A stretch of 57,884 bases of DNA, taken from positions 1 through 57,884 of the forward strand of contig CAIRBT010000155.1 of NCBI GenBank assembly GCA_903876875.1, given 5' to 3'. The stretch's first letter is position 1. Each line of letters starts with the position of its first letter. The translations under genes were made by a program, and so were the position numbers. A model generated the notes under the pieces. It saw only the letters and a list, made by a program, of their open reading frames with translations, did not search any database and had not been told where the DNA came from. Positions 4,761 to 37,370 of the stretch are shown piece by piece. The stretch is from an uncultured Geobacteraceae bacterium (lineage in GTDB: Bacteria > Desulfobacterota > Desulfuromonadia > Geobacterales > Pseudopelobacteraceae).

Positions 4761-4809
4761 CTGACTGGAAAACCAGAGGTCAAGGGACAATGCCCCTTGG
4801 CCTCTTTTT
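4761..4809 (+). promoter_or_regulatory. Leader A: covarying hairpin plus terminator (attenuator)
   Basis: CTGAC is followed by the hairpin CTGG-AAAA-CCAG (4765-4776), then AGGTCAAGGG as the 5' arm of a terminator whose 3' arm CCCTTGGCCT runs into TTTTT (4805-4809). Relative to the other copies (CCAG-AAAA-CTGG), both sides of the first hairpin are swapped so that pairing is kept, which is compensatory evidence for an RNA structure. TGAC can also pair with GTCA of the terminator arm, giving a possible antiterminator. It precedes the corrinoid methyltransferase operon. Confidence 0.75.
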
Positions 4810-4843
4810 GCGTTTTACAGCCTGCTGTTACAAAGGAATGAAC

Positions 4844-5800
4844 ATGGGGATAGTGCGCAGATGTACATTCGTGCTCGGCATCTTACTAACGGTTTCTGTA
4901 GGTCTGTGCGGTGGGGCAGTTTCGAGCAAGGCAGATGCACCGGGCACAATTATCGTCTCGGATGCCAAGTCTCTCAACCATGTTAATCTGTATGTTGCAG
5001 ATGCTCTTGGTCTTTTCAAAAAACATGGTGTCGCTGTTACCATCAGTGAAACCAGGGATCAATCGGCTTCTCTTGATGCGGTTGTCACCGGAAGAGCAGA
5101 TCTGTTCTGGTCCTGCCCGTCCGTCGGCATATCTGCCATTGGCAATGGTGCTCCTCTCAAAATTATCTCACAGGTTAAATCACCCTGCAGTTGGGTGCTG
5201 GTTGCCGGAAAGAAGTCACACCTTACGAGCTGGAGGGATTTGAAAGGTAAGCACATTGCAGGTACCTCGGCAACCTGCGAAGGGGTTATCGCCTACCAAA
5301 AGAGAGCAAAAAACGCCGGAGCGGAGTTTGTGCTGGAAACTCTGGCCAGAGGACAGGCACTGGTAGCCCTGGAAACGGGAAAGATTGACGGGGCAATTCT
5401 GGAAGAACCGTATGTCAGTAGTGCTGAAAGAAAAGGGTTTTCTCTATTCTTCTGTGACACGGCTTCTCAGGTGCCGTGTCGGGTCATCACAGCCCGCACC
5501 GGATATCTGACAGAGAATCCCGTAGCTTTGAAGCGTTTTGTTGCAGCGATCCAGGAAGCAAACTCCATTATTCTCAAGGATCCACAGGGGACAGTGGTGA
5601 CTGAAATTGCCAAGAGATATACCGGTATTCCTGACCATACTGTCAAACAGGTTATCAGTCACCTCCATTTTACTACCACAATCCAGGAACAGGGGCTGCT
5701 GTCACTGGCAGACGATCTTGTTGCACTGAAAAATATCAGGGAAAATCCCGAGAAGAGACTCTTTGCAAAAGAATTCAGAGGAATTACCTGGGGAAAGTAA
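4844..5800 (+). CDS. Periplasmic substrate-binding protein, NMT1/SsuA-like
   Basis: This binding protein of the NMT1/THI5 and SsuA type has a signal peptide (MGIVRRCTFVLGILLTVSVGLC) and the family sequence LNHVNLYVADALGLFKKHGV near residue 40, LIDAVVTGRADLFWSCPSVG-like ligand contacts, and TGKIDGAILEEPY near 180. The start at 4844 is chosen because AAAGGA lies at 4832-4837 and the upstream in-frame ATG at 4757 falls inside leader A. It is the first gene of block A and has no permease beside it, so it probably delivers its ligand to the importer of block B. The ligand may be a small methylated or sulfur compound, by context only. Confidence 0.75.
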   Translation: MGIVRRCTFVLGILLTVSVGLCGGAVSSKADAPGTIIVSDAKSLNHVNLYVADALGLFKKHGVAVTISETRDQSASLDAVVTGRADLFWSCPSVGISAIGNGAPLKIISQVKSPCSWVLVAGKKSHLTSWRDLKGKHIAGTSATCEGVIAYQKRAKNAGAEFVLETLARGQALVALETGKIDGAILEEPYVSSAERKGFSLFFCDTASQVPCRVITARTGYLTENPVALKRFVAAIQEANSIILKDPQGTVVTEIAKRYTGIPDHTVKQVISHLHFTTTIQEQGLLSLADDLVALKNIRENPEKRLFAKEFRGITWGK

Positions 5801-5825
5801 TACTACATTTCACGGAGCTGCGCAG

Positions 5826-6479
5826 ATGAGTGTATTGACACCGGAAGCATTGTTTGAAGAGTTATCGAATGCGGTTGTAGAGATGGATGAAGAGAGAGTG
5901 ATAACAGGATCTGAGGCTGCACTTGCTGCGGATATTGATGCCTATGATGCTATTCAGCAGGGGCTTTCCCACGGTATGGAACGGGCCGGGCAGCTCTTTG
6001 AGGATGAAGAATATTTTATTCCTGAATTACTGATGTGCTCCGATGCCATGTATGCCGGTCTGGAGGTACTCAAGCCCCATCTGAAAAGAACTACCGAGAG
6101 CAGGGGGACTGTGGTCATCGGCGTGATTGAAGGGGATACCCACGATATTGGCAAGAATATGGTGCGTATCATGCTCGAATCGGGTGGATTCAAGGTCATC
6201 GATTTGGGACGTGACGTGACACCTCAACGTTTTGTGGATACGGCGCGTGAGTCGAAGGCCGATATAATCGCACTGTCCACACTGATGACCACCACCATGG
6301 ACGGCATGGGTACCGTGGTCAGGTTGCTGGAGGAAGCTGATCTTCGGGGGGGGGTAAAGGTAATGGTGGGGGGTGGTCCCATCTCGACCGGTTTTGCCAA
6401 GCGTATTGGTGCCGATGGCTATGCGGTTAATGCAGCGGAAGCGGTGAAGGTTGCCCGGGAACTTGTGGGGAACGCCTGA
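5826..6479 (+). CDS. Methyltransferase cognate corrinoid protein
   Basis: This 217-residue protein has an N-terminal helical cap (residues 1-90) and a cobalamin-binding Rossmann domain with the base-off motif D104-x-H106-x2-G109 in IEGDTHDIGKNM, followed by GGGPIS near 195. Such proteins (MtbC, MttC, MtsB-like) carry a methyl group on cobalt between two methyltransferases. The start is the ATG at 5826, since the frame extends upstream into the preceding gene. It overlaps the start of the next gene by one base. It is the only corrinoid protein seen in the window, so all three neighbouring methyltransferases may use it. Confidence 0.88.
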   Translation: MSVLTPEALFEELSNAVVEMDEERVITGSEAALAADIDAYDAIQQGLSHGMERAGQLFEDEEYFIPELLMCSDAMYAGLEVLKPHLKRTTESRGTVVIGVIEGDTHDIGKNMVRIMLESGGFKVIDLGRDVTPQRFVDTARESKADIIALSTLMTTTMDGMGTVVRLLEEADLRGGVKVMVGGGPISTGFAKRIGADGYAVNAAEAVKVARELVGNA

Positions 6480-7549
6480 TGGCGGGTGTGGGTATGACAT
6501 CACTGGAACGGTTCGCCGCCTACGGGCGGGGTGACGCTATTGACCGGCTTCCCTGTGTACCTATCGTGGGGAACGGTGCTGCGCGGGTTATCGGTGCAAA
6601 AATTTCCCATTTTCGTGGTAACGGTCGGCTTATTGCCGAGGCCCAGACAGCCGCGTACCGCAGATTTGGCTATGACGTCATACGGGTGTTTACCGACCTC
6701 TACACTCTGGCAGAGGCCATGGGAGCCGGAGTCCACTATCCGGAAGATGAAACCGCCTATCTTTCGGTGCCGGCGATCCCGTCGGTGGAGAATATTTCCC
6801 GATTGCAGCCGGTAACCCCGGAACGGGACGGTAATCTGCCATCACACCTGGAGGCCATGCAACGGGTTATTGCAGAAGTCGGCTCTGAGGTGCCGGTCAC
6901 CGGTGCGGTTACCTGCCCCTTCACTACCGCCTCTTTTTTAATCGGGGCGGAAAATCTGGCACGGCTGATACTGAAAAACCCGGCAGCGGTGCATCAACTG
7001 TGTGAGGTTGCCCTTGAGTCGGCCATTCGGTACGCCGCCGCCATTATGGCGACCGGCTGTACGCCGAGCCTGACCGATCCGATGTCTTCCAGCACGGTCA
7101 TTGGACCCCGGCAATTCAGGGAATTTTCATTGCCCTACCTGAAGCGTCTGATTACTTTTATTCATGATCAGGGGCGCAGTGTGACCCTGCATATCTGCGG
7201 TAAAACCGACAAGATCTGGCATGACATGGTTGATGCCGGTGCCGGTTGTCTCAGTATCGATAACGATGCCAGTCTTGCCGGTGCCGTGGCGACGGTGGGG
7301 GGGCGGGTGCGTCTCATGGGCAATATCCACCCGTCGGAGATTATGCTTCAGGGGGCTCCTGCAGATGTGCGTCGGGCGGTGTTCAACTGCATTTCGCAGG
7401 CGGGCACCAGTCCGAAAGGGTATATCGTCGCGTCCGGCTGCAGCCTGCCGACCGAAACCCCCGCTGCCAACATTCAGGCAATGATGGATGCAGTCAGAGA
7501 GATTGGCTGGCCGCTCAAGCCGGAAGTACTTTCAGGGGGCATACTATGA
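6479..7549 (+). CDS. UroD/MtaA-family corrinoid methyltransferase 1
   Basis: This 356-residue zinc methyltransferase of the uroporphyrinogen decarboxylase fold shows the metal-binding triad H238-x-C240 (LHICG) and C321 (ASGCSLP), as in MtaA, MtbA and CmuA C-terminal domains. These enzymes move a methyl group between a corrinoid protein and a thiol or between a methylated substrate and the corrinoid. It starts within the stop codon of the corrinoid gene and overlaps the next gene by four bases (ATGA), so it is translationally coupled. It is clearly paralogous to the gene at 10262. Its direction and substrate are not readable. Confidence 0.82.
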   Translation: MAGVGMTSLERFAAYGRGDAIDRLPCVPIVGNGAARVIGAKISHFRGNGRLIAEAQTAAYRRFGYDVIRVFTDLYTLAEAMGAGVHYPEDETAYLSVPAIPSVENISRLQPVTPERDGNLPSHLEAMQRVIAEVGSEVPVTGAVTCPFTTASFLIGAENLARLILKNPAAVHQLCEVALESAIRYAAAIMATGCTPSLTDPMSSSTVIGPRQFREFSLPYLKRLITFIHDQGRSVTLHICGKTDKIWHDMVDAGAGCLSIDNDASLAGAVATVGGRVRLMGNIHPSEIMLQGAPADVRRAVFNCISQAGTSPKGYIVASGCSLPTETPAANIQAMMDAVREIGWPLKPEVLSGGIL

Positions 7550-8586
7550 ATGACGCAAGTCCAAAAGAGAGATTGCTCGATACGCTGGCGAAGAAAACGG
7601 TTGATCGTCCCCCGGTAATCTGTACCGGCGGTATGATGAATTCGGCCATTGTGGATGTCATGAACAAGACCGGTCATACCCTGCCGGAGGCACATTTTGA
7701 AGCGGCCCGGATGGCTGATCTTGCTACTGGTATTCATACTGAAACCGGTTTTGAAAATATGGGTATTCCGTTTTGTATGACTGTTGAGGCAGAAGTGCTC
7801 GGTAGTGTGATCGATTTTGGCTCCCGTGCCTGTGAACCAAAAATTGCCCGGGAACTGTATCCATCGGCCAAAGATGTTGTTTTCAAAGATATCAGCTCTC
7901 TTCTGCGCGTCGGGCGTATTTCTGAGGTGGCCGGTGCTGCCGAACTCCTGGTTCGGCATAACCCGGAACAGCCGGTTATCGGCAGTCTGACCGGTCCGAT
8001 CAGTACCGCTGCCTCAGTGGTCGATCCGCTGCAGTTTTTGAAAGAGTTGCGTAAAGACAGGGATTCGGCCCATCGTCTGCTTGACTATGTCAGCTCTTTT
8101 CTCATCGGTTTTGCCCGTATTCTGGTTGACAGCGGAGCAACGGCAATCTGCATCGGCGATCCGACCGCGACCGGTGAAATACTTGGTCCCCGTATGTTCG
8201 ATGAATATGCCGTGACCTATCTGAACAGGATCATCGACGGAATCCATGCTTCCGGAGTCCCGGTGCTGGTGCATATTTGTGGAGAGATGAAGGCGGTCAA
8301 GGGATCGATTCCGCTCCTTCACTCGGACGCCATCAGTACTGACGCCTTTGTGAATCTGAAACTCCTGAAACAAGAATACCCCCAGTTGACAACCATGGGG
8401 AATCTGAGCACCATTCTTCTGGAAAGTGGCGACCCGGAAAAGGTCGCCCAGCGGACTACGACGCTGGTGCGGGAAGGCATTGATATTATTTCACCCGCCT
8501 GTGGTCTCAGTACCTCCACCTCCCTTGCCACAATCCGGGCCATGACCGATACGGTGAAAGAAGGCGTCAGGGGTGCTGGCATATGA
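7546..8586 (+). CDS. UroD/MtaA-family corrinoid methyltransferase 2
   Basis: The 346-residue protein belongs to the same zinc methyltransferase fold with H243-x-C245 (VHICG) and C319 (SPACGLST). It is more MtbA-like (NSAIVDVMNKTG at the N terminus and GNLSTILLESGDPEKV near residue 280) and is distinct from the 6479 and 10262 pair. Within the operon it could be the methyl-accepting partner that moves the methyl group to a thiol, while the other two act on substrates; this is inference. It overlaps both neighbours by four bases. Confidence 0.82.
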   Translation: MNDASPKERLLDTLAKKTVDRPPVICTGGMMNSAIVDVMNKTGHTLPEAHFEAARMADLATGIHTETGFENMGIPFCMTVEAEVLGSVIDFGSRACEPKIARELYPSAKDVVFKDISSLLRVGRISEVAGAAELLVRHNPEQPVIGSLTGPISTAASVVDPLQFLKELRKDRDSAHRLLDYVSSFLIGFARILVDSGATAICIGDPTATGEILGPRMFDEYAVTYLNRIIDGIHASGVPVLVHICGEMKAVKGSIPLLHSDAISTDAFVNLKLLKQEYPQLTTMGNLSTILLESGDPEKVAQRTTTLVREGIDIISPACGLSTSTSLATIRAMTDTVKEGVRGAGI

Positions 8587-10241
8587 GTATGGTACACTTT
8601 TTACCCGGCGGCAGAGTTGTTGAGGTCGGGGTTGGCACGACTATTCTTGAGGCTGCCCGCTCGGCTGGGGTACTGATTGAGGCTCCGTGTAACGGTGCGG
8701 GGCAGTGCGGTAAATGTGCCGTGCTGGTCCCGGTTGATGAGTTGCTACATCTGGTACTCCACGAACCGGCCACACCGCTTGACGGGAAAACCGCCCGGGT
8801 ACTTGCGTGCCATGCCGATGTAACCGGTGATGTGACCGTAACCGTTCCCGTACGTGGCGAGAAGGGACTGGTTGCCATTGACGCCGGTCTGTCCCGGTTC
8901 GTGCCGCTGCTTCCCCACATTACCACACAATTCCATCCGGAACGCTCGATGACCACCGTATGGGCCGGGGATTTCGCTCTCGCCGAAGAGTCGGGTGATA
9001 CTCGTTTATCTCTCTTTGGTATTGTCTTTGACATCGGAACGACCACTCTGGTGGGAGCACTGATAGATTTGAACAGTGGCACAGAGGTGGCAACCGCTTC
9101 AGCACTGAATCCCCAAAGTCTCCATGCCCAGGATGTATTGTCGCGGATACGCTTTGCTTCCAATCCGGACGGGCTTGCACAGTTGCAAAGTGAACTGATG
9201 GCAGTTTTGAACCGCATGACTACAGAAGTCTGCGGAGAGGCCGGTATTGCCCCATCCCGGATATTTGAAGCCATTTTCAGTGGCAATACCTGCATGGTGC
9301 ATCTTGCTGTGGGCGTTGACCCGGAACCGCTTGGCAAAATTCCCTTCACTCCAACAATCCGGGGGGGTAATCACCTCCCTGCGACAGACATCTCTCTGCA
9401 GATCGCTCCGAACGGTATCGTCTATCTGCCAGAGATAATCTCAGCGTATGTCGGGGCTGATATCAGTGTGGGGATCCTGGCTGCCGATCTTGCCGCTCTT
9501 TCCGGCGTATCACTGTTTATTGACATCGGTACCAATGGTGAACTGGTAGTGGCTGTAGACGGTCTGTTAACCGCCTCGGCGACCGCCGCCGGTCCCGCTT
9601 TTGAAGGGATGAATATATCCTCCGGTATGCGGGCGGCTTCCGGTGCCATCGAGCGTGTTTCTCTTAACGGGGACGGTACCCTGGAAATCGGTGTCATCAG
9701 TGCCGCAGAGCCACGGGGAATCTGCGGCAGTGGGTTAATGGATCTGGTCGCCCTGCTTCTACAACAGGGCCTTATCGGCCCGAGCGGGCGTTTTACCGTT
9801 CCGGCAGCTGCTCTTTCCACATTGGTGGAACGGCTTGAGGGGGAGGGAGCGGGGCGTGCTTTTCGTGTCTCGCCGGGGGTTACTCTGACTCAGAAGGACA
9901 TCCGACAGGTTCAGCTTGCCAAAGGAGCTATTCGTGCAGGCATTGAGCTGCTCCTCGAAAGTGCGGCTGTTTCTCCTTCAAAATTGGATCGGGTTCTGAT
10001 TGCCGGTTCATTTGGCTATCATTTGAGTGAAGAGAGTCTACTGACGTTGGGACTTTTGCCGCCCGAGGCTGTCGGAAAAGTTTCCTTTCTTGGCAATACC
10101 TCGCGCAGCGGCGGTGAAATGCTTCTTGTTAATCGCACGCTTCGAGCAGAACTGGCATCTGTGGTCTCCCGAGTGACAACGGTGGAGCTTGCAGCCAATC
10201 CGTGTTTTGAGCGGGCTTTTGTCGAAGCAATGAAATTTTAG
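8583..10241 (+). CDS. Reductive activator of corrinoid proteins (RACE), [2Fe-2S] plus ASKHA domains
   Basis: The 552-residue protein has an N-terminal plant-type [2Fe-2S] domain with C36, C42, C45 and C76 (C-x5-C-x2-C...C), a linker, and a DUF4445 ASKHA ATPase-like domain with FDIGTTTLVGALIDL near residue 153 and FIDIGTNGELVVA near 312. RACE proteins use reduced ferredoxin and ATP to rescue accidentally oxidised Co(II) corrinoid proteins to Co(I). Its place among the corrinoid protein and methyltransferases fits. The [2Fe-2S] type differs from methanogen RamA, which has C-terminal 4Fe-4S motifs. Confidence 0.88.
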   Translation: MSMVHFLPGGRVVEVGVGTTILEAARSAGVLIEAPCNGAGQCGKCAVLVPVDELLHLVLHEPATPLDGKTARVLACHADVTGDVTVTVPVRGEKGLVAIDAGLSRFVPLLPHITTQFHPERSMTTVWAGDFALAEESGDTRLSLFGIVFDIGTTTLVGALIDLNSGTEVATASALNPQSLHAQDVLSRIRFASNPDGLAQLQSELMAVLNRMTTEVCGEAGIAPSRIFEAIFSGNTCMVHLAVGVDPEPLGKIPFTPTIRGGNHLPATDISLQIAPNGIVYLPEIISAYVGADISVGILAADLAALSGVSLFIDIGTNGELVVAVDGLLTASATAAGPAFEGMNISSGMRAASGAIERVSLNGDGTLEIGVISAAEPRGICGSGLMDLVALLLQQGLIGPSGRFTVPAAALSTLVERLEGEGAGRAFRVSPGVTLTQKDIRQVQLAKGAIRAGIELLLESAAVSPSKLDRVLIAGSFGYHLSEESLLTLGLLPPEAVGKVSFLGNTSRSGGEMLLVNRTLRAELASVVSRVTTVELAANPCFERAFVEAMKF

Positions 10242-10261
10242 CATGGAAAGGAGCAGGTGCC

Positions 10262-11347
10262 ATGGCCGGAAAATTTTTTGAATGTATGACCGCAAAGGAG
10301 CGGGTAGTTGCTGCGTTGACCGGGCAGCCCTATGACCGTATCCCGGTGTTTATGCTCCTGAGTGACCAGGCTTCCCGGACGATCAACGTCACCGTCGGCG
10401 AGTACCAGAACTCTGCACATCTGCTGGCACAGGGACAACTCACCGCCTGGCGGGAGTACGGGATGGATATGATTAATACCGGCCCCGGTTTGACCGGTAT
10501 TGCCGAAGCAGCGGGGAGTCGACTGGCCTTTCCCGATGATACGGCCTATGTAGTGGAGACGGCCCTTACGAAACCGGAGGATCTTGATCGTTTGATAATT
10601 CCCGATCCGCTTCGTCAGGGGCGCTTGCCGCTGTTTCTGGAGGCGACGGAAACGGTTTTGCGGGAGGTGGGGGAACAGGTGCTGGTCTCCCTGACCACGG
10701 CCGGTCCCTTTACCACGGCGTCAGGATTGCGCGGAACCGAACATCTGATGCGTGATCTTCGCCGAAATCCGGAATTTGTCCATCGCCTGATGCGTTTTGC
10801 GACCGACAGCACCATTCCATTTGTTACTGAGGTCATGAAACGGGGAGGGCGGATCGGCATTGCGGAGCCGGTGGCATCGGGAACGCTGATCAGTCGGGGG
10901 CAGTTTCAGGAATTTGTACTCCCCTACCTGAAAGAACTTATCACCGTTATCAAAAATCTTTCCGGCTCTGCACCATCCCTCCACATCTGTGGTAACAGTT
11001 CCCGCATCTGGCATGACATGGTGGAGAGTGGTGCCGGCACCCTGAGTCTTGATGACGAGGTTGATCTTGGCGATGCACGGGAGGCGGTGGGTGACCGGGT
11101 CGCATTGGTCGGAAATATCCGTCCTACGACAACCATGGCCCTCGGCACGCCGGAAGATGTGAGGCGCAATGTCATTGAGTGTTTGCAAAAGGGGGTCGGC
11201 AGTCCGAAGGGGTTCATACTTGGTTTGGGATGTGCGTTACCGATCAATACGCCGAGAGAAAATATCCATGCCTTGATGGCAGCCGCACGGGAATACGGTC
11301 GTTGGCCTAGTGATTCAGAGCGGTTGTCTGCGGTAGTTGTCTCATAA
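10262..11347 (+). CDS. UroD/MtaA-family corrinoid methyltransferase 3
   Basis: This 361-residue paralogue of the 6479 gene has the zinc triad H241-x-C243 (LHICG) and C324 (GLGCALP). N-terminal sequence (TAKERVVAALTGQPYDRIPVF) is typical of the UroD-like branch. An AGGAG lies just upstream of the ATG. It closes block A; a 220-base intergenic stretch with leader B follows. Having two close paralogues with one corrinoid protein suggests two methylated substrates. Confidence 0.82.
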   Translation: MAGKFFECMTAKERVVAALTGQPYDRIPVFMLLSDQASRTINVTVGEYQNSAHLLAQGQLTAWREYGMDMINTGPGLTGIAEAAGSRLAFPDDTAYVVETALTKPEDLDRLIIPDPLRQGRLPLFLEATETVLREVGEQVLVSLTTAGPFTTASGLRGTEHLMRDLRRNPEFVHRLMRFATDSTIPFVTEVMKRGGRIGIAEPVASGTLISRGQFQEFVLPYLKELITVIKNLSGSAPSLHICGNSSRIWHDMVESGAGTLSLDDEVDLGDAREAVGDRVALVGNIRPTTTMALGTPEDVRRNVIECLQKGVGSPKGFILGLGCALPINTPRENIHALMAAAREYGRWPSDSERLSAVVVS

Positions 11348-11464
11348 AATAAATAAAATATAAATAATAGAGGTTTTATAGTTGTTTGTTTTTTGTAAAA
11401 GTGTTAGTGTGACAAACGTCAATATGGTACTACGTTTTTAGGTATGCCTTAAGGGAAATTTCGA

Positions 11465-11528
11465 CTGACCAGATAACTGGAGGTCAAGACACAGCGGTCA
11501 ACAACCGTTGTGTCTTGACCTTTTTTTT
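11465..11528 (+). promoter_or_regulatory. Leader B: covarying hairpin plus terminator
   Basis: CTGAC leads into CCAG-ATAA-CTGG (11469-11480), then AGGTCAAGACACA, which pairs with TGTGTCTTGACCT ahead of eight T residues. TGACC can alternatively pair with GGTCA across the first hairpin. The 118 bases upstream (11348-11464) are AT-rich with no clear consensus promoter and no gene. Confidence 0.75.
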
Positions 11529-11566
11529 GTGCTGAAATCAACGATCTGCGTGATGGAGAGAAGAGA

Positions 11567-12382
11567 GTGCATGAAGTCGTTCTAAATAACGTCAGCTATT
11601 TCTATGGCACTGCACGGGTGCTGAAAGATATTATCTTTACCGCAGAAGCGGGGGATTTTGTCTGTCTACTTGGCCCTTCCGGATGTGGAAAAAGCACGCT
11701 GTTACGACTTTTGGCCGGACTTGCCCGACCGTCAAGCGGAGAGATAACCATCGGGGGGAGCGAAATAACCGGCCCCGGCCTTGATCGAGGCGTGGTGTTT
11801 CAGGACTATTCCTTGTTTCCCTGGATGACCGCCGGGCAGAATATCATTCTGGCTTTACAGCAGGCATTTCCCGGCAAGAAAAAGAGTGACTACCACGAGG
11901 CGGCCCAGGGGTATCTGGAGATGGTTGGTCTCGGTACGTCCTTTGCCAAGCTTCCGGGTCAGATGTCGGGAGGTATGCGACAGCGGGTGGCCATTGCCCG
12001 GGCCTTTGCCGTCAATGCTCCTGTTCTCTTGATGGATGAGCCCTTTGGTGCCCTTGATGCCATTACCCGTGCCCGGCTTCAGGATATGCTGCTCCAGTTG
12101 TGGCAACAAAAAGAAGGGGAACGGAAGACGGTTTTCTTTGTCACCCATGACGTTGAGGAGGCCATTCTGCTGGCCAACCGGATTGTTGTTCTTGGACTTA
12201 ATCCGGGCAGTATTAAAGGTGCCTTTGAGGTCAATCTTCCCCGACCGCGGATTCGGCAGGAATTATACCATGAGAAACAGTTTCTTGAATTGCGTGATCA
12301 ATTGGTGACCGTACTCCATGAGAATATTCTCCACGAACTTGATGGCGGGCAGACCGTGCGTCCTCTGGGAGAAGGCATTTGA
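11567..12382 (+). CDS. ABC transporter ATPase, nitrate/sulfonate/taurine (SsuB/TauB) type
   Basis: The 271-residue ATPase has Walker A GPSGCGKST at residues 36-44, the Q-loop in VVFQDYSLFPWMT, signature MSGGMRQRVAIARA, Walker B LLMDEPFGALDA and the H-loop THDVEE. It starts at GTG 11567 with GGAGAG upstream. It powers the importer whose permease is at 15249, possibly paired with the second ATPase at 17698. First gene of block B behind leader B; the next gene overlaps its stop codon. Confidence 0.9.
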   Translation: MHEVVLNNVSYFYGTARVLKDIIFTAEAGDFVCLLGPSGCGKSTLLRLLAGLARPSSGEITIGGSEITGPGLDRGVVFQDYSLFPWMTAGQNIILALQQAFPGKKKSDYHEAAQGYLEMVGLGTSFAKLPGQMSGGMRQRVAIARAFAVNAPVLLMDEPFGALDAITRARLQDMLLQLWQQKEGERKTVFFVTHDVEEAILLANRIVVLGLNPGSIKGAFEVNLPRPRIRQELYHEKQFLELRDQLVTVLHENILHELDGGQTVRPLGEGI

Positions 12383-13143: not shown

Positions 13144-13155
13144 GGAGGAGAATGT

Positions 13156-14184: not shown

Positions 14185-14196
14185 AGGAGTGTCACC

Positions 14197-15240: not shown

Positions 15241-15248
15241 GATGTGTC

Positions 15249-16151: not shown

Positions 16152-16175
16152 AATGAGAAAGGAACCGCACTGCCA

Positions 16176-17693: not shown

Positions 17694-17697
17694 AAAG

Positions 17698-18613: not shown

Positions 18614-20065
<1,452 letters not shown>

Positions 20066-22853: not shown

Positions 22854-22857
22854 CAAA

Positions 22858-23335: not shown

Positions 23336-23348
23336 TTGCGTATGATAA

Positions 23349-23445: not shown

Positions 23446-23460
23446 TTTAAATAATAATGG

Positions 23461-23524: not shown

Positions 23525-23566
23525 ATTCGTGCAATGGAGTCAAACGGAACAAGGGGATAACTGGTA

Positions 23567-24823: not shown

Positions 24824-24836
24824 GCGGGGAGAGTAT

Positions 24837-25301: not shown

Positions 25302-25306
25302 TCAGT

Positions 25307-26140: not shown

Positions 26141-26152
26141 GGTACCAGGTTC

Positions 26153-26938: not shown

Positions 26939-26973
26939 TGTGTGAAGATAATCAAACAAAAGGAGTTTTTCCC

Positions 26974-27936: not shown

Positions 27937-27941
27937 CCGCC

Positions 27942-28667: not shown

Positions 28668-28672
28668 TCGTT

Positions 28673-30235: not shown

Positions 30236-31404
30236 AGCGAATATTTGACACCGGTAATGCGGCCATAACCGAAGGAGCCATCAGGGCAGGGTGTAATTTG
30301 TTTGCCGGATATCCGATTACTCCGGCCACCGAGATAGCTGAGAATATGTCCCGTCGTTTACCTCAGGTGGGGGGCTATTACCTGCAGGCGGAAGATGAAA
30401 ATGCCGCCCTGCATATCTGTAATGGCGGTTCCATCGGGGGACTCAAGGCCATGACTGCCACCTCCGGACCCGGGTTTATTCTGTTTGCCGACGCCTTCGG
30501 TTGGGCTGTCAGCAGCGAAGTGCCGGTGGTCATTGTCAACTCACAAAGAGTCGGGCCGGTGAGCGGTATTACCGGGGCACCGGGGCAGGGAGAGTTCTAC
30601 TTAAGCCGCTATCTTACCCATGGCGGTAATTATGAAACCATCGTCCTTGCACCGGCTTCCGTGCAGGAAGCCTATCGGCTGACGGTACGGGCCTTCGCCC
30701 TTGCCGAACGTTTCCGTACTCCGGTCATCGTGCTGGCAGATCAGATGGTCACCGATGGCTGGGAAACCCTGGAACTGCCGGAGACCGACGACGAATTCGC
30801 CGCCCTTGGACTGGAAGTGGTTCCCCGCCGGATCAATCCCGGCCCCGAATTCTATCCCGCCTCCGATGAAATTGATGTGCCGCCGGTGGTGCTGGGGCAC
30901 AACACCGGAGCCGCCTGTTCTGACTGGACGCCGACGGATCGTGGCCACGACACTGAGGATATCACCTGGCAACATAAGCATGCCTGGCGGCTCATCCATA
31001 AAATAGTGAACAACCGTCAGTTGATAGATGAAGCCGATGAATGGTTTCTTGATGATGACCCGGAGATTATACTGGTCGGGTACGGTACCCCGTCCCGGGT
31101 AATCCGGAGTGCCGTAGGAGAGGCCAGAAAGAGTGGACTCAAGGTGGGTGGCATTCGCCTGATATCACTCTGGCCGTTTCAAAGCCATCTGTTTACCCGC
31201 ACCGCCTGCTATCTGGTGGTGGAGTTGAATTGGGACGGGCAGTTGGTCCGTGAAGTGGAGAGAGCGGCTGCCGATGGCAGCAACGTTCACTTCTGGGGGC
31301 GGTGCGGGGAACTGCCCTCGATGGCGGAGCTGCTCGATACGGTTCGGCAGTTGCTTGACAATGAACCGTTGCAGCGTGACGGTTGGCGTACGGAGAAATG
31401 GTGA
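30232..31404 (+). CDS. 2-oxoacid:ferredoxin oxidoreductase, alpha subunit
   Basis: The 390-residue subunit has the pyrimidine-binding and domain II features of KorA/VorA-type proteins: AGCNLFAGYPITPATEIAENMSR, GYYLQAEDENAALHICNGGSIGG and KAMTATSGPGFILF. With the next two genes it oxidatively decarboxylates a 2-oxo acid to an acyl-CoA, reducing ferredoxin. The order alpha, beta, gamma without a ferredoxin-type delta gene fits the KorABC layout. Ferredoxin made here could feed corrinoid activation or the nitrogenase-like enzyme. Confidence 0.87.
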   Translation: MKRIFDTGNAAITEGAIRAGCNLFAGYPITPATEIAENMSRRLPQVGGYYLQAEDENAALHICNGGSIGGLKAMTATSGPGFILFADAFGWAVSSEVPVVIVNSQRVGPVSGITGAPGQGEFYLSRYLTHGGNYETIVLAPASVQEAYRLTVRAFALAERFRTPVIVLADQMVTDGWETLELPETDDEFAALGLEVVPRRINPGPEFYPASDEIDVPPVVLGHNTGAACSDWTPTDRGHDTEDITWQHKHAWRLIHKIVNNRQLIDEADEWFLDDDPEIILVGYGTPSRVIRSAVGEARKSGLKVGGIRLISLWPFQSHLFTRTACYLVVELNWDGQLVREVERAAADGSNVHFWGRCGELPSMAELLDTVRQLLDNEPLQRDGWRTEKW

Positions 31405-31405
31405 T

Positions 31406-32254
31406 ATGAGCGATTTACTGGAAACATACGTCCGACCGGAAAAAAATCCCGGCACGGCGTGCAAGGGGTGTGGGTTACGATTGGCTCACCGGAACGTGCT
31501 TGAAGCCATCGATGAATTGAAACTGTCAACCGGTGATGTCGTGTGGGGTACCGGCATTGGCTGCTCGGGACGGCAAACCTTCGCGACCTGGCGAGGAGAT
31601 ACCTTCGCCGGTACCCACGGACGGGTCTATGCCATGGCTACCGGTTTGCGGCTGGCGTTGCCTCCGGAAAAACGTCTGATTTTAACCGTTGGGGACGGTG
31701 ATGCCTTTACCATCGGTTTTCTGCATCTGCTCAATGCGGCACGCCGTAACGTTGACATGACGGTGGTGGTTTTTGACAACCTTGGATACCAGTCAACCGG
31801 CGGGCAATACGGGGTTACAACACCACTGGGAAGTCGTACCGACAGCAGTCCCTACGGAGCCTGGGAGCCGAACTGGACCCAGGGGGGCTTTGATGTGCTG
31901 CGGATACTCAAGGAGGCGGGGGCAACGTTTTTGGCACGACATACGGTGCTTCAGGGACACGAACCGGTGGAAAGCCTGAAGAAGGCCATCGGGAACCGGG
32001 GCTTTTCTCTGGTACAACTCATCTATCCCTGCGTAACCCACTTTGGTGTCCAAGCCTTGGAAACCCGTAATATCGCGACTGTCTATGACTGGTTTCGAGA
32101 GCGCACCAGCGACGATCTTGCGGCAGATTCCAACACACATTTTACCACCGGTATTGTTCATGATGCCGCCGGTTCACGACCGGAATTTTCCGTAGCAGTG
32201 AGAGATTTTGTTGCTTCGGTGCAGAAAGGGGGCAGCCGTGGTGGCACGAATTGA
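31406..32254 (+). CDS. 2-oxoacid:ferredoxin oxidoreductase, beta (TPP-binding) subunit
   Basis: The 282-residue subunit has NPGTACKGCGLRLAHRNVLEA with cluster-type cysteines, IGCSGRQTF, and the thiamine diphosphate motif GDGDAFTIGFLHLLNAARRN followed by DNLGYQSTGGQ. The start at ATG 31406 lies one base after the alpha stop codon; a longer upstream frame overlaps alpha and is not used. It contains the active-site cofactor and one [4Fe-4S] cluster. Confidence 0.87.
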   Translation: MSDLLETYVRPEKNPGTACKGCGLRLAHRNVLEAIDELKLSTGDVVWGTGIGCSGRQTFATWRGDTFAGTHGRVYAMATGLRLALPPEKRLILTVGDGDAFTIGFLHLLNAARRNVDMTVVVFDNLGYQSTGGQYGVTTPLGSRTDSSPYGAWEPNWTQGGFDVLRILKEAGATFLARHTVLQGHEPVESLKKAIGNRGFSLVQLIYPCVTHFGVQALETRNIATVYDWFRERTSDDLAADSNTHFTTGIVHDAAGSRPEFSVAVRDFVASVQKGGSRGGTN

Positions 32255-32771
32255 AATTCTGATCAGCGGTTTTGGCGGTCAGGGGGTGGTGCGTATCGGC
32301 CAGATACTGGGGCAGGCGGCCGTTAACCAAGGTCTGTACACCACCATGCTTATCAGCCATGGGACGGAAACCAGGGGAGGGTATGTCCGGAGCCAGGTAG
32401 TCATCTCCGATGCTTTCATTGACAGCCCGGTAGTTGAAAATCCCGCCTACTTTTGTGCTTTCTCTCCAATTGCCTACGGCATGTTCAAGCATCTCTGTAA
32501 CCGACAGACGGTGATACTGCACAATCCGAATCTGGTTACCGCCGATCCGGCATCTGATGCATGTCACAGGGCGATTGCCGGGGAGACGCTGGCAGAGCGG
32601 GAGCTGGGAAACGCTCAGTATGCCAATGTTATCTATCTTGGTGTCTTGAGTGCCCACTGTGGTTTGCTTGTGCCGGAACACATTGTCACTGCCATCAGGC
32701 AGCGGCTTCCGGAACGCTCCCATGAAAACAATATACGGGCCTTTGAGCTGGGACGTGAATATACGCTGTAA
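32238..32771 (+). CDS. 2-oxoacid:ferredoxin oxidoreductase, gamma subunit
   Basis: The 177-residue subunit has the gamma signature EILISGFGGQGVVRIGQILGQAA and SHGTETRGGYVRSQVVISD. GTG at 32238 (or the next GTG at 32241) follows a GGGGG ribosome binding site and overlaps the beta gene. It completes the enzyme. Confidence 0.85.
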   Translation: MVARIEILISGFGGQGVVRIGQILGQAAVNQGLYTTMLISHGTETRGGYVRSQVVISDAFIDSPVVENPAYFCAFSPIAYGMFKHLCNRQTVILHNPNLVTADPASDACHRAIAGETLAERELGNAQYANVIYLGVLSAHCGLLVPEHIVTAIRQRLPERSHENNIRAFELGREYTL

Positions 32772-32783
32772 CAGGAGTGAAAA

Positions 32784-33761
32784 ATGAATTTTATCATTAT
32801 CAATACGATCTGCACGGTTCTGTTACTGTTCGTATCCGTCGCAACAATTCTGGCCGAGGATAGCGGGTACAAGGGGTTTAAGCGGGGTACCGCACTGATC
32901 ACCGCGAAGGAACTGAAAAAAAAGCTCGATGGTGAGAATAAAAACCTCATTGTCCTGGCGGCGGAAAGCGATGTCGAATATCGACTGGGGCATATCCCCG
33001 GTTCCCATCAGGTCGATAGACCGGCAATTGAAGCGGCGCCTGAAACACAGAACGGCATCACTGGCAATATAATCGACGCGGCCGGTTTTACCCGTCTAGC
33101 CCGGAGTCTCGGCATTAATCGGGATACCACGGTGGTCATATACGATACCAAATACGACGCTACCCGGCTCTGGTGGGCTTTTACCTATTACGGTAAAAAC
33201 AACATCCGGTTGTTGGATGGGGGAGTAAAAGCCTGGCGTGATGCCGGGTATACGGTCGATCTTTTCGCACCGGATAAGCCGCAGCCGGGCAGTTATACTG
33301 CGTCCATAGCAAAACCGACCTTACGGGTGGATACGGCTGATATCCTCAGATTAAAGACGGCTCACTCTTCACAACTCTGGGATGCCCGTGACCGCAAGGA
33401 GTATTGCGGTGAAGAATTAAAAAAGGGGGCGGTGAGGGCGGGGCGAATTCCCTGGGGGATTCACAGCCCCTGGTTACAGTTTAAAAAGAAGGAGAATCAG
33501 GCGGAATGGCTATCTGCAGCTGAAGTGAAGAGCGTTATCGAGAAACTTGGATACGATCCTGCTAAAGAGCAGTATTTCTACTGTCAGTCTGGGGTGCGAT
33601 CTACTCAAGCAATATTTGCTCTTTATCTATCGGGTTGGCCACTTGAGAGGTTACATAATTATGACAGCTCGTGGATAGGCTGGTCGAGGGATCAAAGACT
33701 GCCTATAGATTCTGGTTGTAGTGAGAATGTAGCTTCAGAAGTAAGTCTGACAAATAAATAG
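32784..33761 (+). CDS. Exported tandem rhodanese (sulfurtransferase)
   Basis: The 325-residue protein has a signal peptide (residues 1-24) and two rhodanese domains. The first (LIVLAAESDVEYRLGHIPGSHQVDR; VVIYDTKYDATRLWW) lacks the active Cys. The second carries Cys267 in YFYCQSGVRSTQA, so it should be active. Two-domain thiosulfate or mercaptopyruvate sulfurtransferases move sulfane sulfur; here the location is periplasmic. It is the last gene of block D and connects the block to sulfur metabolism. Confidence 0.83.
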   Translation: MNFIIINTICTVLLLFVSVATILAEDSGYKGFKRGTALITAKELKKKLDGENKNLIVLAAESDVEYRLGHIPGSHQVDRPAIEAAPETQNGITGNIIDAAGFTRLARSLGINRDTTVVIYDTKYDATRLWWAFTYYGKNNIRLLDGGVKAWRDAGYTVDLFAPDKPQPGSYTASIAKPTLRVDTADILRLKTAHSSQLWDARDRKEYCGEELKKGAVRAGRIPWGIHSPWLQFKKKENQAEWLSAAEVKSVIEKLGYDPAKEQYFYCQSGVRSTQAIFALYLSGWPLERLHNYDSSWIGWSRDQRLPIDSGCSENVASEVSLTNK

Positions 33762-33967: not shown

Positions 33968-34429
33968 TCAGAACAGCTCCTCTACACCCTCCATTTTCAA
34001 CTTTCTAGCTCTTTGACAGAGGTTTTCCAGGGTTATAGAGCCAAAATAACTTTCAAGGAGAGTGCATGCCTCAGTCCAGATTGCCTGATCCACGCACCAC
34101 CCTTCAGGTTGTTGTTCTAATAAATGAGTTGGTTTCATTGTTGTTTTAGCGGTACGGCCATCGAGAGCTACATGCTGTTCAGTACCAGCGATTATCTCTA
34201 AAATTGAGATATTTTCTGATTCCCGCGAAAGAATATAGCCACCTTGTGGCCCACGCTTACTTATTGACAGTCCGGCACGTATATAATGCTGAAAAAGTTG
34301 TTCCAGGTAACGTGGAGGAAACTGCTGCCGACGGGCAATATCCAGTAATTGTTCCGGTTTGCCACAACCATTGTAAGCTATGTCAAACATGGCACGAAGA
34401 CTATGCACGTATTTATTCGATATTTTCAT
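33968..34429 (-). CDS. Rrf2 family transcriptional regulator (copy at end of block F)
   Basis: The 153-residue protein has the Rrf2 winged-helix pattern: SNKYVHSLRAMFDIAYNG, PPRYLEQLFQHYIRAGLSISKRGPQGGYILSRE and SILEIIAGTE. Cysteines in GWCVDQAIWTEACTLL and NLCQ could bind a metal cluster, but the spacing is not IscR-like. It is the last gene of the Rrf2-cysK-nifB-nifX-Rrf2 series. The 206 bases to the rhodanese stop hold no gene. Confidence 0.82.
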   Translation of the reverse strand: MKISNKYVHSLRAMFDIAYNGCGKPEQLLDIARRQQFPPRYLEQLFQHYIRAGLSISKRGPQGGYILSRESENISILEIIAGTEQHVALDGRTAKTTMKPTHLLEQQPEGWCVDQAIWTEACTLLESYFGSITLENLCQRARKLKMEGVEELF

Positions 34430-34439: not shown

Positions 34440-34784
34440 TTATCTTGTTAAAGCGAATCGTTTTGATTTGATCAGTGCTTCGAATGCCTCCGTTATCGTC
34501 CCCGGAAGGGTGAACGCCATTATACGGTGGCCAATGAGCACATCAATGGCTCCGGAACCTATCTGGCAGACAATAACTCCCCGACAATCAGAAATGCCTT
34601 GTGCTGCCAGCTCAAGTGCATTGTCGTCGTGAGTATGTGAGGCACAGAAGGGGCGTACTTCCCGTTGTTCGATGAAATCAACGCCGTCATCGTGCAAGCG
34701 GAATATTCTGAAACTATGTGATTTACCAAAATGCTGATCCACATGTACTCCGTCACTGCTCCCAACCGCAATCCTGACGTCCAT
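34440..34784 (-). CDS. NifX/NafY-like dinitrogenase Fe-Mo cofactor binding protein
   Basis: This 114-residue single-domain protein matches the dinitrogenase iron-molybdenum cofactor family: RIAVGSSDGVHVDQHFGKSHSFRIF, RPFCASHTHDDNALELA, and ISDCRGVIVCQIGSGAIDVLIGHRIMAF. In nitrogenase systems such domains (NifX, NafY, NifB C terminus) bind NifB-co or the cofactor and pass it on. Immediately downstream of NifB, it fits a cofactor carrier for the NifD-like protein. Confidence 0.85.
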   Translation of the reverse strand: MDVRIAVGSSDGVHVDQHFGKSHSFRIFRLHDDGVDFIEQREVRPFCASHTHDDNALELAAQGISDCRGVIVCQIGSGAIDVLIGHRIMAFTLPGTITEAFEALIKSKRFALTR

Positions 34785-34814: not shown

Positions 34815-35657
34815 TCAGACTGATGAACAACCGGTACCTACAAGTCCAACAGCATCGGCACGGCACTGCTGACAACCACGAAACTGGGCTATGCTCCGTT
34901 CATTTTGCGTGCGAACCGACTCCAAATACTCGCCCGTTGGTGGGGATATGCTTGACAACTCGGCCCGTGGAATGAGAGGCATTATATTCATAACAAAAGC
35001 ACCGGCCTGACTGACCCGTTCAGCAATGAGTGGAATTTGCGAATCGTTAATTCCAGGTATGAGTACCGTATTTACCTTGATAACCAACCCCTGTTCGGCC
35101 GCACGACGCAAGCCCTCAAACTGATTATGTATGAGAATGTCAGCACCCTCTTCACCCCGATAACACTGCCCTTCGTGTATGACATGGCTATAAATCCGGG
35201 CACCGACAGCAGCATTAACCGCATTGATGGTTACCGTAAGACTATGGAGGTTTAGTTCTGCCAGGTCAGAAATTCGCTCTGGCAGGGCAAGGCCATTTGA
35301 GCTCAGGCAGAAGAGCAGGTCGGGAAATTCTTCCTTTACCAGTCGAAATGTTTCAAAAGTGCTCTCATTGGCGAGAGGTTCTCCCGGTCCGGCAATACCG
35401 ATGACTTTTATTACCGTGCTGAGTTCGTCATCTGCCATTACCTCACGAACTTTTCCAAGAGCTTGAGCGGGGGTTAAAACCAGGCTGGTAACGCCGGGAC
35501 GTGACTCATTGGCACAATCATGCTTCCGTTCGCAGTAGCCACACTTGATATTGCATCGGGGTGCAACGGCAAGATGAATCCTTCCATTCTTGTGGCGATT
35601 GCCCCCGAAGCATGGGTGTCCATAAATAACTCGGTCTTTGATGATGTGCATCGCCAT
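34815..35657 (-). CDS. nifB: NifB-like radical SAM cofactor synthase, no NifX domain
   Basis: The 280-residue protein has the NifB hallmarks: HPC at residues 14-16, RIHLAVAPRCNIKCGYC with the radical SAM cluster C35-x3-C39-x2-C42, RKHDCANESRPGV, KVIGIAGPGEPLAN, and the C-terminal GCQQCRADAVGL. NifB builds the carbide-containing [8Fe-9S-C] core used by all nitrogenases. The start at 35657 is set just past the cysteine synthase stop, with GAGGG upstream; a longer frame overlaps that gene. Its presence indicates that the NifD-like enzyme may receive a NifB-derived cofactor, unless the genome also has a true nitrogenase elsewhere. Confidence 0.9.
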   Translation of the reverse strand: MAMHIIKDRVIYGHPCFGGNRHKNGRIHLAVAPRCNIKCGYCERKHDCANESRPGVTSLVLTPAQALGKVREVMADDELSTVIKVIGIAGPGEPLANESTFETFRLVKEEFPDLLFCLSSNGLALPERISDLAELNLHSLTVTINAVNAAVGARIYSHVIHEGQCYRGEEGADILIHNQFEGLRRAAEQGLVIKVNTVLIPGINDSQIPLIAERVSQAGAFVMNIMPLIPRAELSSISPPTGEYLESVRTQNERSIAQFRGCQQCRADAVGLVGTGCSSV

Positions 35658-35661
35658 GTTA

Positions 35662-36615
35662 TTAAATGCCCTCAAATAATGCCGTTGACAGATAACGCTC
35701 TGCACCATCAGGCAGCACAACAACAATGGTTTTACCGGCAAATTCATCGAGTTTGGCAAGACGCACCGCTGCAGCTACTGCTGCACCACTTGAAATTCCG
35801 ACAAGAATTCCCTCTTCTTTGGCAAGGCGCTTGGCGTACTCTATGGCGTCGTTGCTTGAAACCTGCTCTACTCTGTCAATGACGCTCAGGTCAAGGTTGT
35901 CGGGAATGAACCCTGCGCCGATACCTTGGATTTTATGAGGTGCTGGCTTAATCTCCTGTCCTGCCAGTTTTTGGCTGATAACTGGGCTTTCTGCCGGTTC
36001 AACCGCAACCGAGATAATTGACTTACCCTTAGTATTCTTAATATAGCGTGACACTCCTGTTATCGTACCTCCAGTACCGACGCCAGCAACCAGAACATCT
36101 ATTTCTCCATCGGTATCATCCCATATTTCCGGTCCAGTGGTCTTTTCATGGATTTCCGGGTTAGCTGGATTCTTGAATTGCTGAGGAAGAAAGTATTTTT
36201 CCGGTTCTGCCGTTGCGATCTGTTCAGCCCTGTTAATGGCACCTTTCATTCCTTCCGGTCCGGGAGTGAGGATGAGGTTGGCACCGAGGGCGGCCAATAC
36301 GCGACGCCGCTCGATGCTCATGGTTTCCGGCATGGTGAGTGTCAGTTTGTATCCCCGTGCAGCGGCCACATACGCAAGTGCGATGCCGGTATTACCGGAT
36401 GTTGGTTCAATAATTTCAACTCCCGGTTTGAGTACCCCCCGTTTTTCTGCATCCCATATCAGATTGGCACCAATGCGGCACTTCACCGAATAAGCAGGAT
36501 TACGACCTTCAATTTTGGCAAGTACGGTGGCTTTGGCGCCATCGGTGATGTGGTTAAGTTTCACGAGTGGAGTGTTGCCGATGGATTGCGAGTTGTCTGA
36601 AAAAAAATTGCTCAT
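35662..36615 (-). CDS. cysK: Cysteine synthase (O-acetylserine sulfhydrylase)
   Basis: The 317-residue PLP enzyme has K45 in [10 protein letters not shown] as the Schiff-base lysine, the substrate loop [11 protein letters not shown] at residues 70-80, and the PLP phosphate loop [10 protein letters not shown]. It makes cysteine from O-acetylserine and sulfide. It is 30 bases downstream of the Rrf2 regulator at 36645. In Gram-positives CysK also binds the Rrf2 regulator CymR to sense O-acetylserine, which makes this pairing suggestive. Confidence 0.92.
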
Positions 36616-36644: not shown

Positions 36645-37106
36645 TTAGATGGCGTAGTCAATTATGTTAGCCTTACGCAGGCTTTCCCTCTGTGATTTTT
36701 CAATCATATCTGCAAGGGTGGTGTTTTCTAGCACTGATTGGATTGAATTCTTCAAATCCTGCATGACCAGATGTATTCCGCAACAAGAAGAGTCATGTCC
36801 CTCTTCGCAAAGACTGTTGTTATTATCTTTCAAGCAATGGACGAGTGTGATGCCTCCATCAAGAATTCTTACAACTGAGTCAATGGTAATTTGAGATGGG
36901 TGTCGTGCTAGACTGTACCCCCCACCTTTTCCAACGCGGCTTGAAAGAACACCACCTTTCTTTAAGGTAAGCAGAATGAACTCCAAAAATTTTTTCGGAA
37001 TATTCTCCACTTCAGCTAGTCCGGCAATCAATATCGGTTGGTTATCGTTATGCTGAGCCATGTAGCTTAGTGCTTTAAGGGCGTACTTCGATTTTTTGGA
37101 AATCAT
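36645..37106 (-). CDS. Rrf2 family regulator with Cys cluster (IscR/CymR-like)
   Basis: The 153-residue regulator has the Rrf2 DNA-binding part ([51 protein letters not shown]) and cysteines C91, C100, C108 and C109 in a loop ([11 protein letters not shown]...SSCC), compatible with Fe-S binding though not with exact IscR spacing. First gene behind leader F, so it may be autoregulated and control block F or the whole regulon. Confidence 0.85.
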
Positions 37107-37126
37107 AGCGTTCGGGTCTCACAATA

Positions 37127-37176
37127 CAAAAAGAGGTCAAGGAAATTTCCTTGACCTCTAGTTTTTCTAGTCAGTC
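37127..37176 (-). promoter_or_regulatory. Leader F: covarying hairpin plus terminator (minus strand)
   Basis: On the minus strand CTGAC leads to CTAG-AAAAA-CTAG (37170-37158), then a perfect 28-base palindrome (37132-37159) with arms AGAGGTCAAGGAAA and TTTCCTTGACCTCT and a T run. CTAG/CTAG is a third sequence version of the first hairpin with pairing kept. Confidence 0.78.
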
Positions 37177-37208
37177 AAAATAGTATAGTATATATAGATT
37201 GTAGATAT

Positions 37209-37236
37209 ATAGTATGTTGTTTTCTGGTTTTGTCAA
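37209..37236 (-). promoter_or_regulatory. Promoter for block F
   Basis: On the minus strand TTGACA (37236-37231), 16 bases, then TACTAT (37214-37209). ATCTATA-type repeats (37190-37210) cover the region just after the -10. Confidence 0.7.
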
Positions 37237-37320
37237 GAAAAATTTTAAAAAATGGTCGCCGTCGCTGTGTGGTGCAAGATTGATGTACCCGTGTTTCCTC
37301 TTGAGTGTCTTTTATTTCAA

Positions 37321-37370
37321 GAGCTGACCAGAAAACTGAAGGCCGTGGGAATTACTCCCTCGCCCTCTTG
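37321..37370 (+). promoter_or_regulatory. Decayed orphan leader G
   Basis: CTGACCAG-AAAA-CTGA followed by AGGCCGTGGG and CCCTCGCCC keeps the leader pattern, but the first hairpin has lost a pair (CTGA), the terminator arms no longer match fully and the T run is gone. No plus-strand gene follows; the next gene is the reverse-strand flavoenzyme. The rest of 37237-37431 shows no gene. Confidence 0.6.

Follow-up and report, generated by a model that had tools for sequence, protein, structure and literature searches.

What controls the operons of a 57,884-nucleotide stretch of DNA from an uncultured Geobacteraceae bacterium, six of which open with what appears to be the same leader RNA? The stretch (contig CAIRBT010000155.1, our C155, called the window at its full length) is part of a 3.93-Mb draft genome, and an earlier note, made from its letters alone, had proposed that six leaders and one decayed copy share an element joining a hairpin to an intrinsic terminator. 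All seven places carry the element, and a covariance model recovers every one of them. We propose that the element switches a sulfur-starvation regulon between termination and antitermination of transcription, probably under the control in trans of small proteins of the DUF2292 (OscA/YezD-like) family. Sequence comparison supports both the predicted switch and the predicted sulfur regulon well.

A hairpin that shares a strand with its terminator

With up to three mismatches allowed, the consensus occurs four times in the window; shuffles predict 0.07 occurrences. The covariance model recovers seven copies, six of them with E values from 5.1e-15 to 6.6e-11 and the decayed one at 1.5e-6; six element copies of this genome trained the model, so their E values are not independent. 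The model was built from 46 sequences (alignment A1), namely three window copies and 43 of 57 non-redundant sequences, with the decayed copy, L090, L027, and L040 excluded. It also detects a further strong copy elsewhere in the same genome (C167:11301-11369). The copies in the window, with one promoter-like sequence, are as follows.

4757-4811, plus strand: copy A, with P2 CTGG/CCAG and P1 TGAC/GTCA, overlapping an intrinsic terminator
11461-11529, plus strand: copy B, with P2 CCAG/CTGG, P1 GAC/GTC, and a long terminator
18670-18724, plus strand: copy C, with P1 at 18673-18675/18691-18693, P2 at 18678-18681/18686-18689, and the terminator from 18690
23457-23526, plus strand: copy D
23264-23337, minus strand: copy E, with an imperfect P2
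37126-37178, minus strand: copy F, with P2 CTAG/CTAG, an AAAAA loop, and P1 TGAC/GTCA
37209-37236, minus strand: TTGACA-16-TACTAT, resembling a promoter, some 30 bases upstream of copy F, a consensus match only (one match, against 1.1 expected in shuffles)
37320-37374, plus strand: copy G, decayed, with a P2 mismatch and a poor U-tract, facing the 3' end of an opposite-strand frame

The element is composed of stem P1, a conserved GA/A internal loop, the 4-bp stem P2, and an ANA(N)A loop. We describe its pairs from alignment A4, which holds 147 matches in 137 distinct rows (4 of the 147 are antisense echoes) and was fitted to a model without the P1 pairs. Columns 3 to 6 pair with 30 to 33 in P1 and columns 9 to 12 with 25 to 28 in P2; in the internal loop the 5' strand has GA and the 3' strand has A, and the terminal loop is ANAA or ANANA. 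The P1 strands have the consensus xRYU and GGYx, and their inner pairs vary among the 137 rows: pair 4-32 is GC in 109, AU in 16, GU in 3, and other in 9; pair 5-31 is CG in 117, UG in 15, UA in 4, and other in 1; and pair 6-30 is UG in 124, CG in 11, and UA in 2. The outer pair 3-33 is weak and is unpaired in 49 rows. Pairs in P2 also vary (CG/UA/GC; CG/UA/UG; AU 107, GC 24, and GU 3), and over the whole hairpin 79 cells are changed on both sides, compared with a shuffle mean of 16.3. Covariation beyond the terminator, on which the proposal of a shared element depended, is thus present in both P1 and P2.

The terminator 5' arm begins with an invariant A followed by the GGYC strand of P1, and its pairs, P2 included, show 332 cells changed on both sides versus 81.8 in shuffles. 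The GGYx columns covary with the terminator 3' arm as well as within P1, and because the same Y column covaries in both, two mutually exclusive pairings are indicated: the 3' strand of P1 doubles as the terminator's 5' arm, so that the hairpin and the terminator forms exclude each other. Predicted folding agrees, giving -8.3 and -8.5 kcal/mol for the hairpin alone in copies C and B, respectively, and a winning terminator form of -24.4 and -35.9 kcal/mol once the 3' arm is present.

This anatomy recasts several details of the earlier note. The variants that it gave for a first hairpin (CCAG/CTGG, CTGG/CCAG, and CTAG/CTAG) are all confirmed as P2, and the TGAC/GTCA antiterminator that it suggested for copies A, B, and F equals P1, except that the outer pair of copy B is C/A, leaving GAC/GTC. 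Copies C, D, and E do pair less well, as it said, and P1 takes a shortened form there that includes a U.G pair. The TGA(C) stretch is indeed shared, but the internal loop is GA/A and the U of TGA is paired, as U.G, C-G, or U-A. Tandem elements occur at four loci (L037, L085, L013, and L142), each element having its own terminator, about 90 to 130 bases from start to start and placed in front of a single operon.

Distribution of the element

The core, with at most one mismatch, is present in 23 of 58 genomes including that of the window, and in none of the 58 with a reversed-pattern control. In the taxonomic order of the window the element is found in 96 of 141 genomes at E ≤ 1e-3, where some of the weakest matches may be chance, and in 69 at E ≤ 1e-8. 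Samples of two further phyla, searched at E ≤ 1e-5, gave 33 of 299 genomes in the Bacillota-labelled phylum of G145 (two of the 33 are seeds) and 5 of 301 in the Chloroflexi-labelled phylum of G155 (one is a seed). The matches in G416 and G631 look like chance by eye and are retained in the counts.

Exact matching against the species-genome collection gave 55 stretches, 47 of which run into a terminator or terminator-like hairpin as judged by script scores and by eye, L090 only weakly; the eight dropped as having no convincing terminator are L042, L047, L051, L052, L054, L064, L065, and L075, the last being borderline. Named carriers are mostly Geobacter, Geomonas, Geotalea, and other Geobacteraceae or Desulfuromonadales. 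The 47 also include records labelled Treponema, Syntrophomonas, Lachnospiraceae, Armatimonadota, Chloroflexi, Nitrospirota, Auribacterota, and Actinomycetes, but most of these are metagenome assemblies, and single taxon labels may therefore be wrong.

Genes led by the element

After removal of the 4 antisense echoes and 10 duplicates, the 147 matches leave 133 distinct elements, of which 128 have an open reading frame of at least 90 codons within 400 nucleotides; these have 122 distinct starts, and 121 proteins were scanned once a nested duplicate was removed. Many are recognizable sulfur genes, coding for ATP-sulfurylase (sulfate adenylyltransferase), phosphoadenylyl-sulfate (PAPS) reductase, S-adenosylmethionine synthetase (metK), cysK, metY, and Cys/Met pyridoxal-phosphate (PLP) enzymes, as well as sulfate-binding and SsuA-family proteins, NlpA lipoprotein, TauE exporter, DsrE2, and rhodanese. 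Others code for NifH-like, NifB-like, and corrinoid proteins, and sulfonate/sulfate importers and nitrogenase-like clusters are also led by the element. Counts for the 25 commonest families among the 121 include NMT1 (9), SsuA_fam (7), radical SAM (6; NifB 6 in NCBIfam), ATP-sulfurylase (5), rhodanese (5), metK (4), PALP (4), NifH (4), and Cys_Met_Meta_PP (3), the rest being varied. Gene kinds like these, named by eye, follow the element in two Treponema genomes, one Syntrophomonas genome, and one Bacillota genome with eight copies.

Scatter without regard to gene function would have spoken against a regulon; instead the element leads many sulfur genes in several phyla, though not exclusively, and by their predicted functions the genes behind it are a sulfur regulon. 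The earlier view of six operons as one regulon stands in this sense, but the regulon is wider than the window, as there are many copies in other genomes and a further one on C167. The C167 copy leads DsrE2, an SrpI-like type 2A encapsulin, and a class-V aminotransferase; TusA-, CysE-, and MetB-like frames were also recognized there by eye. We note that in this region (L175, 9126-12331) the encapsulin carries a cyclic-nucleotide domain and the aminotransferase a long N-terminal extension; the encapsulin is possibly a sulfur-storage compartment under control of the element.

A small DUF2292 gene accompanies the element

A small frame recurs directly ahead of the element in the fetched loci, and three such proteins match DUF2292 in Pfam. 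Element and DUF2292 occur together in 59 of the 141 genomes of the order, the element alone in 10, DUF2292 alone in 5, and neither in 67 (Fisher p = 4.8e-23), and DUF2292 is present in 42 of the 44 order genomes with at least three copies. The corresponding numbers for Bacillota are 27, 6, 19, and 247 (p = 1.6e-20; 25, 6, 19, and 247 with p = 4.5e-19 without the two seeds) and for Chloroflexi 4, 1, 0, and 296 (p = 1.5e-8; 9e-7 without the seed). The Fisher tests ignore shared ancestry, and the three phyla agree. Among 16 distant genomes chosen by the element alone, all but G154 have DUF2292.

Gene order is one-sided. Of 38 distinct DUF2292 frames in the A4 sources, 28 have an element within 300 nucleotides downstream, none has one within 700 nucleotides upstream, and 10 have neither; as the loci were mostly selected for the element, the direction is more telling than the proportion. 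Seen from the element, a DUF2292 frame lies within 250 nucleotides upstream of 27 of the 133 distinct elements, and in 10 of the 16 distant genomes it ends 6 to 70 nucleotides before the element (that of G142 is a contig-end fragment). Counted by hand in the six genomes whose elements were listed in full, 8 of 12 DUF2292 matches are followed by an element at no more than 300 nucleotides, and loci centered on DUF2292 have a downstream element within the stretch in 10 of 16 cases, six close by and four about 1 kb off. The order is reversed in G148 and for one gene of G121, where DUF2292 follows an element at 1.2 to 1.6 kb. The genome of the window has a single DUF2292 match above the Pfam gathering score (C167:10461-10562, E = 2.8e-17, 60 residues), and one methyltransferase-like frame separates it from the C167 element. 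Cytobacillus spongiae has an annotated yezD followed directly by the element (29.2 bits, P2 CTAG/CTAG) and then by genes for phosphoadenylyl-sulfate reductase (cysH), a phosphate-type transporter, sat, cysC, and nitrite/sulfite reductase.

DUF2292 (Pfam PF10055) is a family of about 60 residues that includes YezD of Bacillus, is conserved in protein sequence, and is related to OscA. Four of the DUF2292 proteins of element-bearing genomes match NF033785 of NCBIfam (OscA, sulfur starvation response protein) at E values of 1.3e-9 (genome of the window), 1.6e-8, 6.8e-8, and 5.6e-7 (Treponema), and at their scores these four are classed as relatives of OscA rather than as OscA. In Pseudomonas corrugata, the small oscA gene is grouped with genes of sulfate transport and is cotranscribed with sbp, which encodes a sulfate-binding protein; its inactivation renders the strain chromate sensitive, and oscA-sbp is strongly overexpressed upon chromate exposure, according to two reports (PMC2996968 and PMC3596284), which cite an OscA paper whose title concerns sulphur starvation and Cr(VI) resistance. 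The chromate phenotype and induction would suit a positive role. We note also a DUF2292 subgroup reading MEFGSLHIVVHEGQIVQMERTERKRF (L312 and L311, in G222 and G178) behind which no element was found, possibly a paralogue with another target.

Proposed mechanism and alternatives

The structure of the element, its two exclusive pairings, the gene content of the regulon, and the co-occurrence and order with DUF2292 all come from sequence comparison. Once RNA polymerase clears the promoter, the nascent transcript would fold the P1-P2 hairpin first. If the hairpin is unheld, the longer terminator would capture the GGYC strand of P1 and transcription would stop; if active DUF2292 clamps the hairpin, the terminator would be blocked and the sulfur genes transcribed. 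A protein holding P1-P2 would withhold GGYC from the terminator, and binding should therefore mean read-through; we infer that DUF2292 binds the RNA, that binding is the ON state, and that sulfur limitation is the signal. As duf2292 often lies just before the element, its synthesis there would be independent of antitermination, and the protein could open its own operon as well as other element-led operons in trans, such as the six in the window. The antiterminator hairpin and the terminator share a strand and are both conserved, and a candidate protein co-occurs with the RNA, exceptions aside, as in protein-dependent antitermination of the ribonucleic antiterminator (RAT) kind.

Several observations weigh against this proposal. 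Ten element-bearing genomes of the order have no DUF2292. In two of these, G052 (98% complete) and G118 (88% complete), the element is present six times and a DUF2292 profile search gave nothing at a convincing level, while the other eight carry one or two copies. DUF2292 was also not found in six element-positive Bacillota genomes (a repeat search of four was again negative) or in G154 and G631. Conversely, at the thresholds used, 5 order genomes and 19 Bacillota have DUF2292 and no element. When 20 DUF2292 regions, 18 from 17 DUF2292-only genomes and two from element-positive G423, were scanned with high sensitivity, elements below E = 1e-5 were found in L321, L315, L325, and L329 (the last from G423), weaker ones in L320, and none convincing in the other regions; DUF2292 genes on Paenibacillus and Novosphingobium plasmids have no element nearby. 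Two of the covariation counts show no excess over shuffles: further pair types in A1 (5 versus 5.8) and, less clearly, pairs altered on both sides in A4 (6 versus 4.6, a value reached by 75 of 500 shuffles). Many first genes have no sulfur name, and for some, among them the genes for a cell-wall-binding protein, an efflux adaptor, and CbiM, a connection with sulfur is not apparent. The OscA scores (29.5 to 37.9 bits) are below the NF033785 equivalog cut-off of 85. Finally, the predicted structure, a helix and two strands, is of modest confidence (mean predicted local distance difference test, pLDDT, of 73.3; predicted template modeling score, pTM, of 0.45) and resembles no solved RNA-binding protein, nor any other solved structure, which leaves RNA binding without structural support.

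The earlier note had left a choice between a small riboswitch and the target of an RNA-binding antiterminator, and the DUF2292 link favors the latter. P1-P2 could be a tiny aptamer for a sulfur metabolite such as O-acetylserine, S-adenosylhomocysteine (SAH), or S-adenosylmethionine (SAM), with DUF2292 a mere operon member, and a metabolite-like regulon that includes metK, the spread over several phyla, and genomes with copies and no DUF2292 found would all fit. However, at about 24 nucleotides and with few unpaired bases that are conserved, the hairpin would be a very small aptamer, and a riboswitch predicts neither the co-occurrence nor the one-sided gene order with DUF2292, so that we regard it as unlikely. 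A different protein might instead bind the hairpin, leaving DUF2292 as a regulated passenger or accessory factor, and here the six-copy genomes G052 and G118 and the lack of a recognized RNA-binding fold count in its favor. This we find quite unlikely, since it leaves the one-sided position of DUF2292 unexplained and since, among the protein groups common to the element-rich regions of at least 3 of 25 genomes, inspection by eye recognized nothing but enzymes, transporters, and Rrf2 (6 of 25); this comparison had a 60-residue minimum, which could hide other small proteins, and it would miss a partner encoded elsewhere.

Attenuation in cis, with translation of the duf2292 frame to a stop codon beside the element deciding the fate of the hairpin, would be suggested by the stop codon lying within 27 nucleotides of the modelled element in 18 of the 27 upstream cases, but it is very improbable: 106 of the 133 distinct elements, those of the window included, have no DUF2292 frame within 250 nucleotides upstream (some loci being cut short), and the DUF2292 protein sequence itself is conserved. 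We give least credence of all to a DNA operator, which the palindromic P2 (CCAGnnnnCTGG) might suggest, or to a plain constitutive terminator lacking regulation, given the compensatory changes in P1 and P2, the fixed strand and spacing relative to the terminator, and the mutual exclusion of the two folds.

The window operons and neighboring features

Antitermination by DUF2292 would place the following genes of the window under common control, those behind copy A being assigned by resemblance.

4844 to 11347, plus strand: genes behind copy A, with substrate-binding-like, B12-binding-like, and corrinoid-methyltransferase-like frames
8583-10241: RACo-type activator in the copy A operon (Pfam)
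11567-18543: ATP-binding cassette (ABC) importer-like genes behind copy B
16176-17693: Oxidored_nitro, a NifD-like protein in the copy B operon
18776-20065: metY-like, behind copy C
20126-20998: porin-like, behind copy C
21015-21665, plus strand: NifH-like, behind copy C
22858-23241: DUF2325 gene led by copy E
23567 to 33761: radical-SAM-like, ABC-importer-like, and further frames led by copy D
32784-33761: rhodanese in the copy D operon
36645-37106: Rrf2, behind copy F
35662-36615: cysK-like, behind copy F
34815-35759: radical SAM (nifB-like), behind copy F
34440-34784: NifX-like, copy F operon
33968-34429: Rrf2, copy F operon

The window cluster may resemble methylthio-alkane reductase clusters. 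The NifH-like protein has only 216 residues, compared with 291 in its relatives; its best Pfam stretch aligns residues 65 to 196 with profile positions 136 to 267, a second stretch is counted, and some 70 internal positions seem absent. Beyond the decayed copy G there is a short cysK-like frame of 205 residues (39104-39721, plus strand), apparently a remnant. A c-di-GMP-I riboswitch at 43341-43417 (plus strand, 63.6 bits) precedes a gene for two-partner secretion of the ShlB/FhaC type at 43528 and a 3,740-residue frame at 46612.

Relation to known systems

The c-di-GMP-I riboswitch is the only Rfam match in the window at the gathering score, in line with the earlier note, which recognized no known riboswitch class, and an Rfam covariance search of eight loci at E ≤ 10 has no match at the element. 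A close parallel is with antiterminators of the BglG/SacY/LicT type, which stabilize a RAT hairpin; that hairpin is short, contains internal loops, and shares sequence with the 5' arm of an intrinsic terminator. The element has the same overlap and differs in RNA sequence and loop layout. Membership of DUF2292 in that group was rejected, as the three DUF2292 proteins scanned match only PF10055 in Pfam at E ≤ 0.01 and show no CAT RNA-binding domain. ANTAR proteins recognize two hexaloop hairpins with A1 and G4, and GnfR is an example of protein-dependent antitermination in Geobacter. Protein-dependent antitermination of Geobacter metabolic operons would be common to both, but the element is one hairpin of a sulfur regulon, and its single hairpin and 4- or 5-nucleotide loop (ANAA/ANANA) rule out an ANTAR target. 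The T-box has an invariant UGGN bulge that pairs with the tRNA end; the UGGA is lost in copies A and F, where P2 is CTGG/CCAG or CTAG/CTAG, and a T-box was likewise rejected. Rrf2 proteins are DNA-binding regulators, and CymR/CysK is a case of Rrf2 control of sulfur genes. The copy F operon similarly pairs Rrf2 with a cysK-like gene, but the element is an RNA structure and 6 of 25 genomes have Rrf2 in their element regions. The SAM riboswitches (S-box) of Geobacter also exert terminator-linked control, of methionine genes (PMC545781 and PMC2700814); the element is far smaller and has no Rfam match.

OscA shares a family resemblance with DUF2292, and its sources, as far as their accessible text goes, describe no RNA element or RNA binding (PMC2996968 and PMC3596284). 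No account of the element or of RNA binding by DUF2292 was found among the open-licence papers listed, and an unlabelled earlier sighting may be among the supplementary motifs of PMC11109978 and PMC2700814. The mechanism appears to be a variant of protein-dependent antitermination, and the RNA class and the proposed DUF2292 role appear to be new. On balance, we favor the broader view that the DUF2292/OscA/YezD proteins form a new family of antiterminators that bind RNA sequence-specifically, with the hairpin as its target in a sulfur-starvation regulon common to Desulfobacterota, Bacillota, Chloroflexi, Spirochaetes, and several other phyla, a kind of system comparable to the S-box or T-box.

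The proposal names one RNA, one protein, and one assay and is directly testable. The element is also a marker that hints at a sulfur function for uncharacterized operons, including the nitrogenase-like and corrinoid clusters of the window. If the proposal is true, it would supply sulfur regulation with a new RNA class, in addition to the S-box, the T-box, and DNA-binding repressors, would provide a molecular explanation for the sulfur-starvation and chromate phenotypes of OscA, and would give a function to a widespread family of proteins of about 60 residues.

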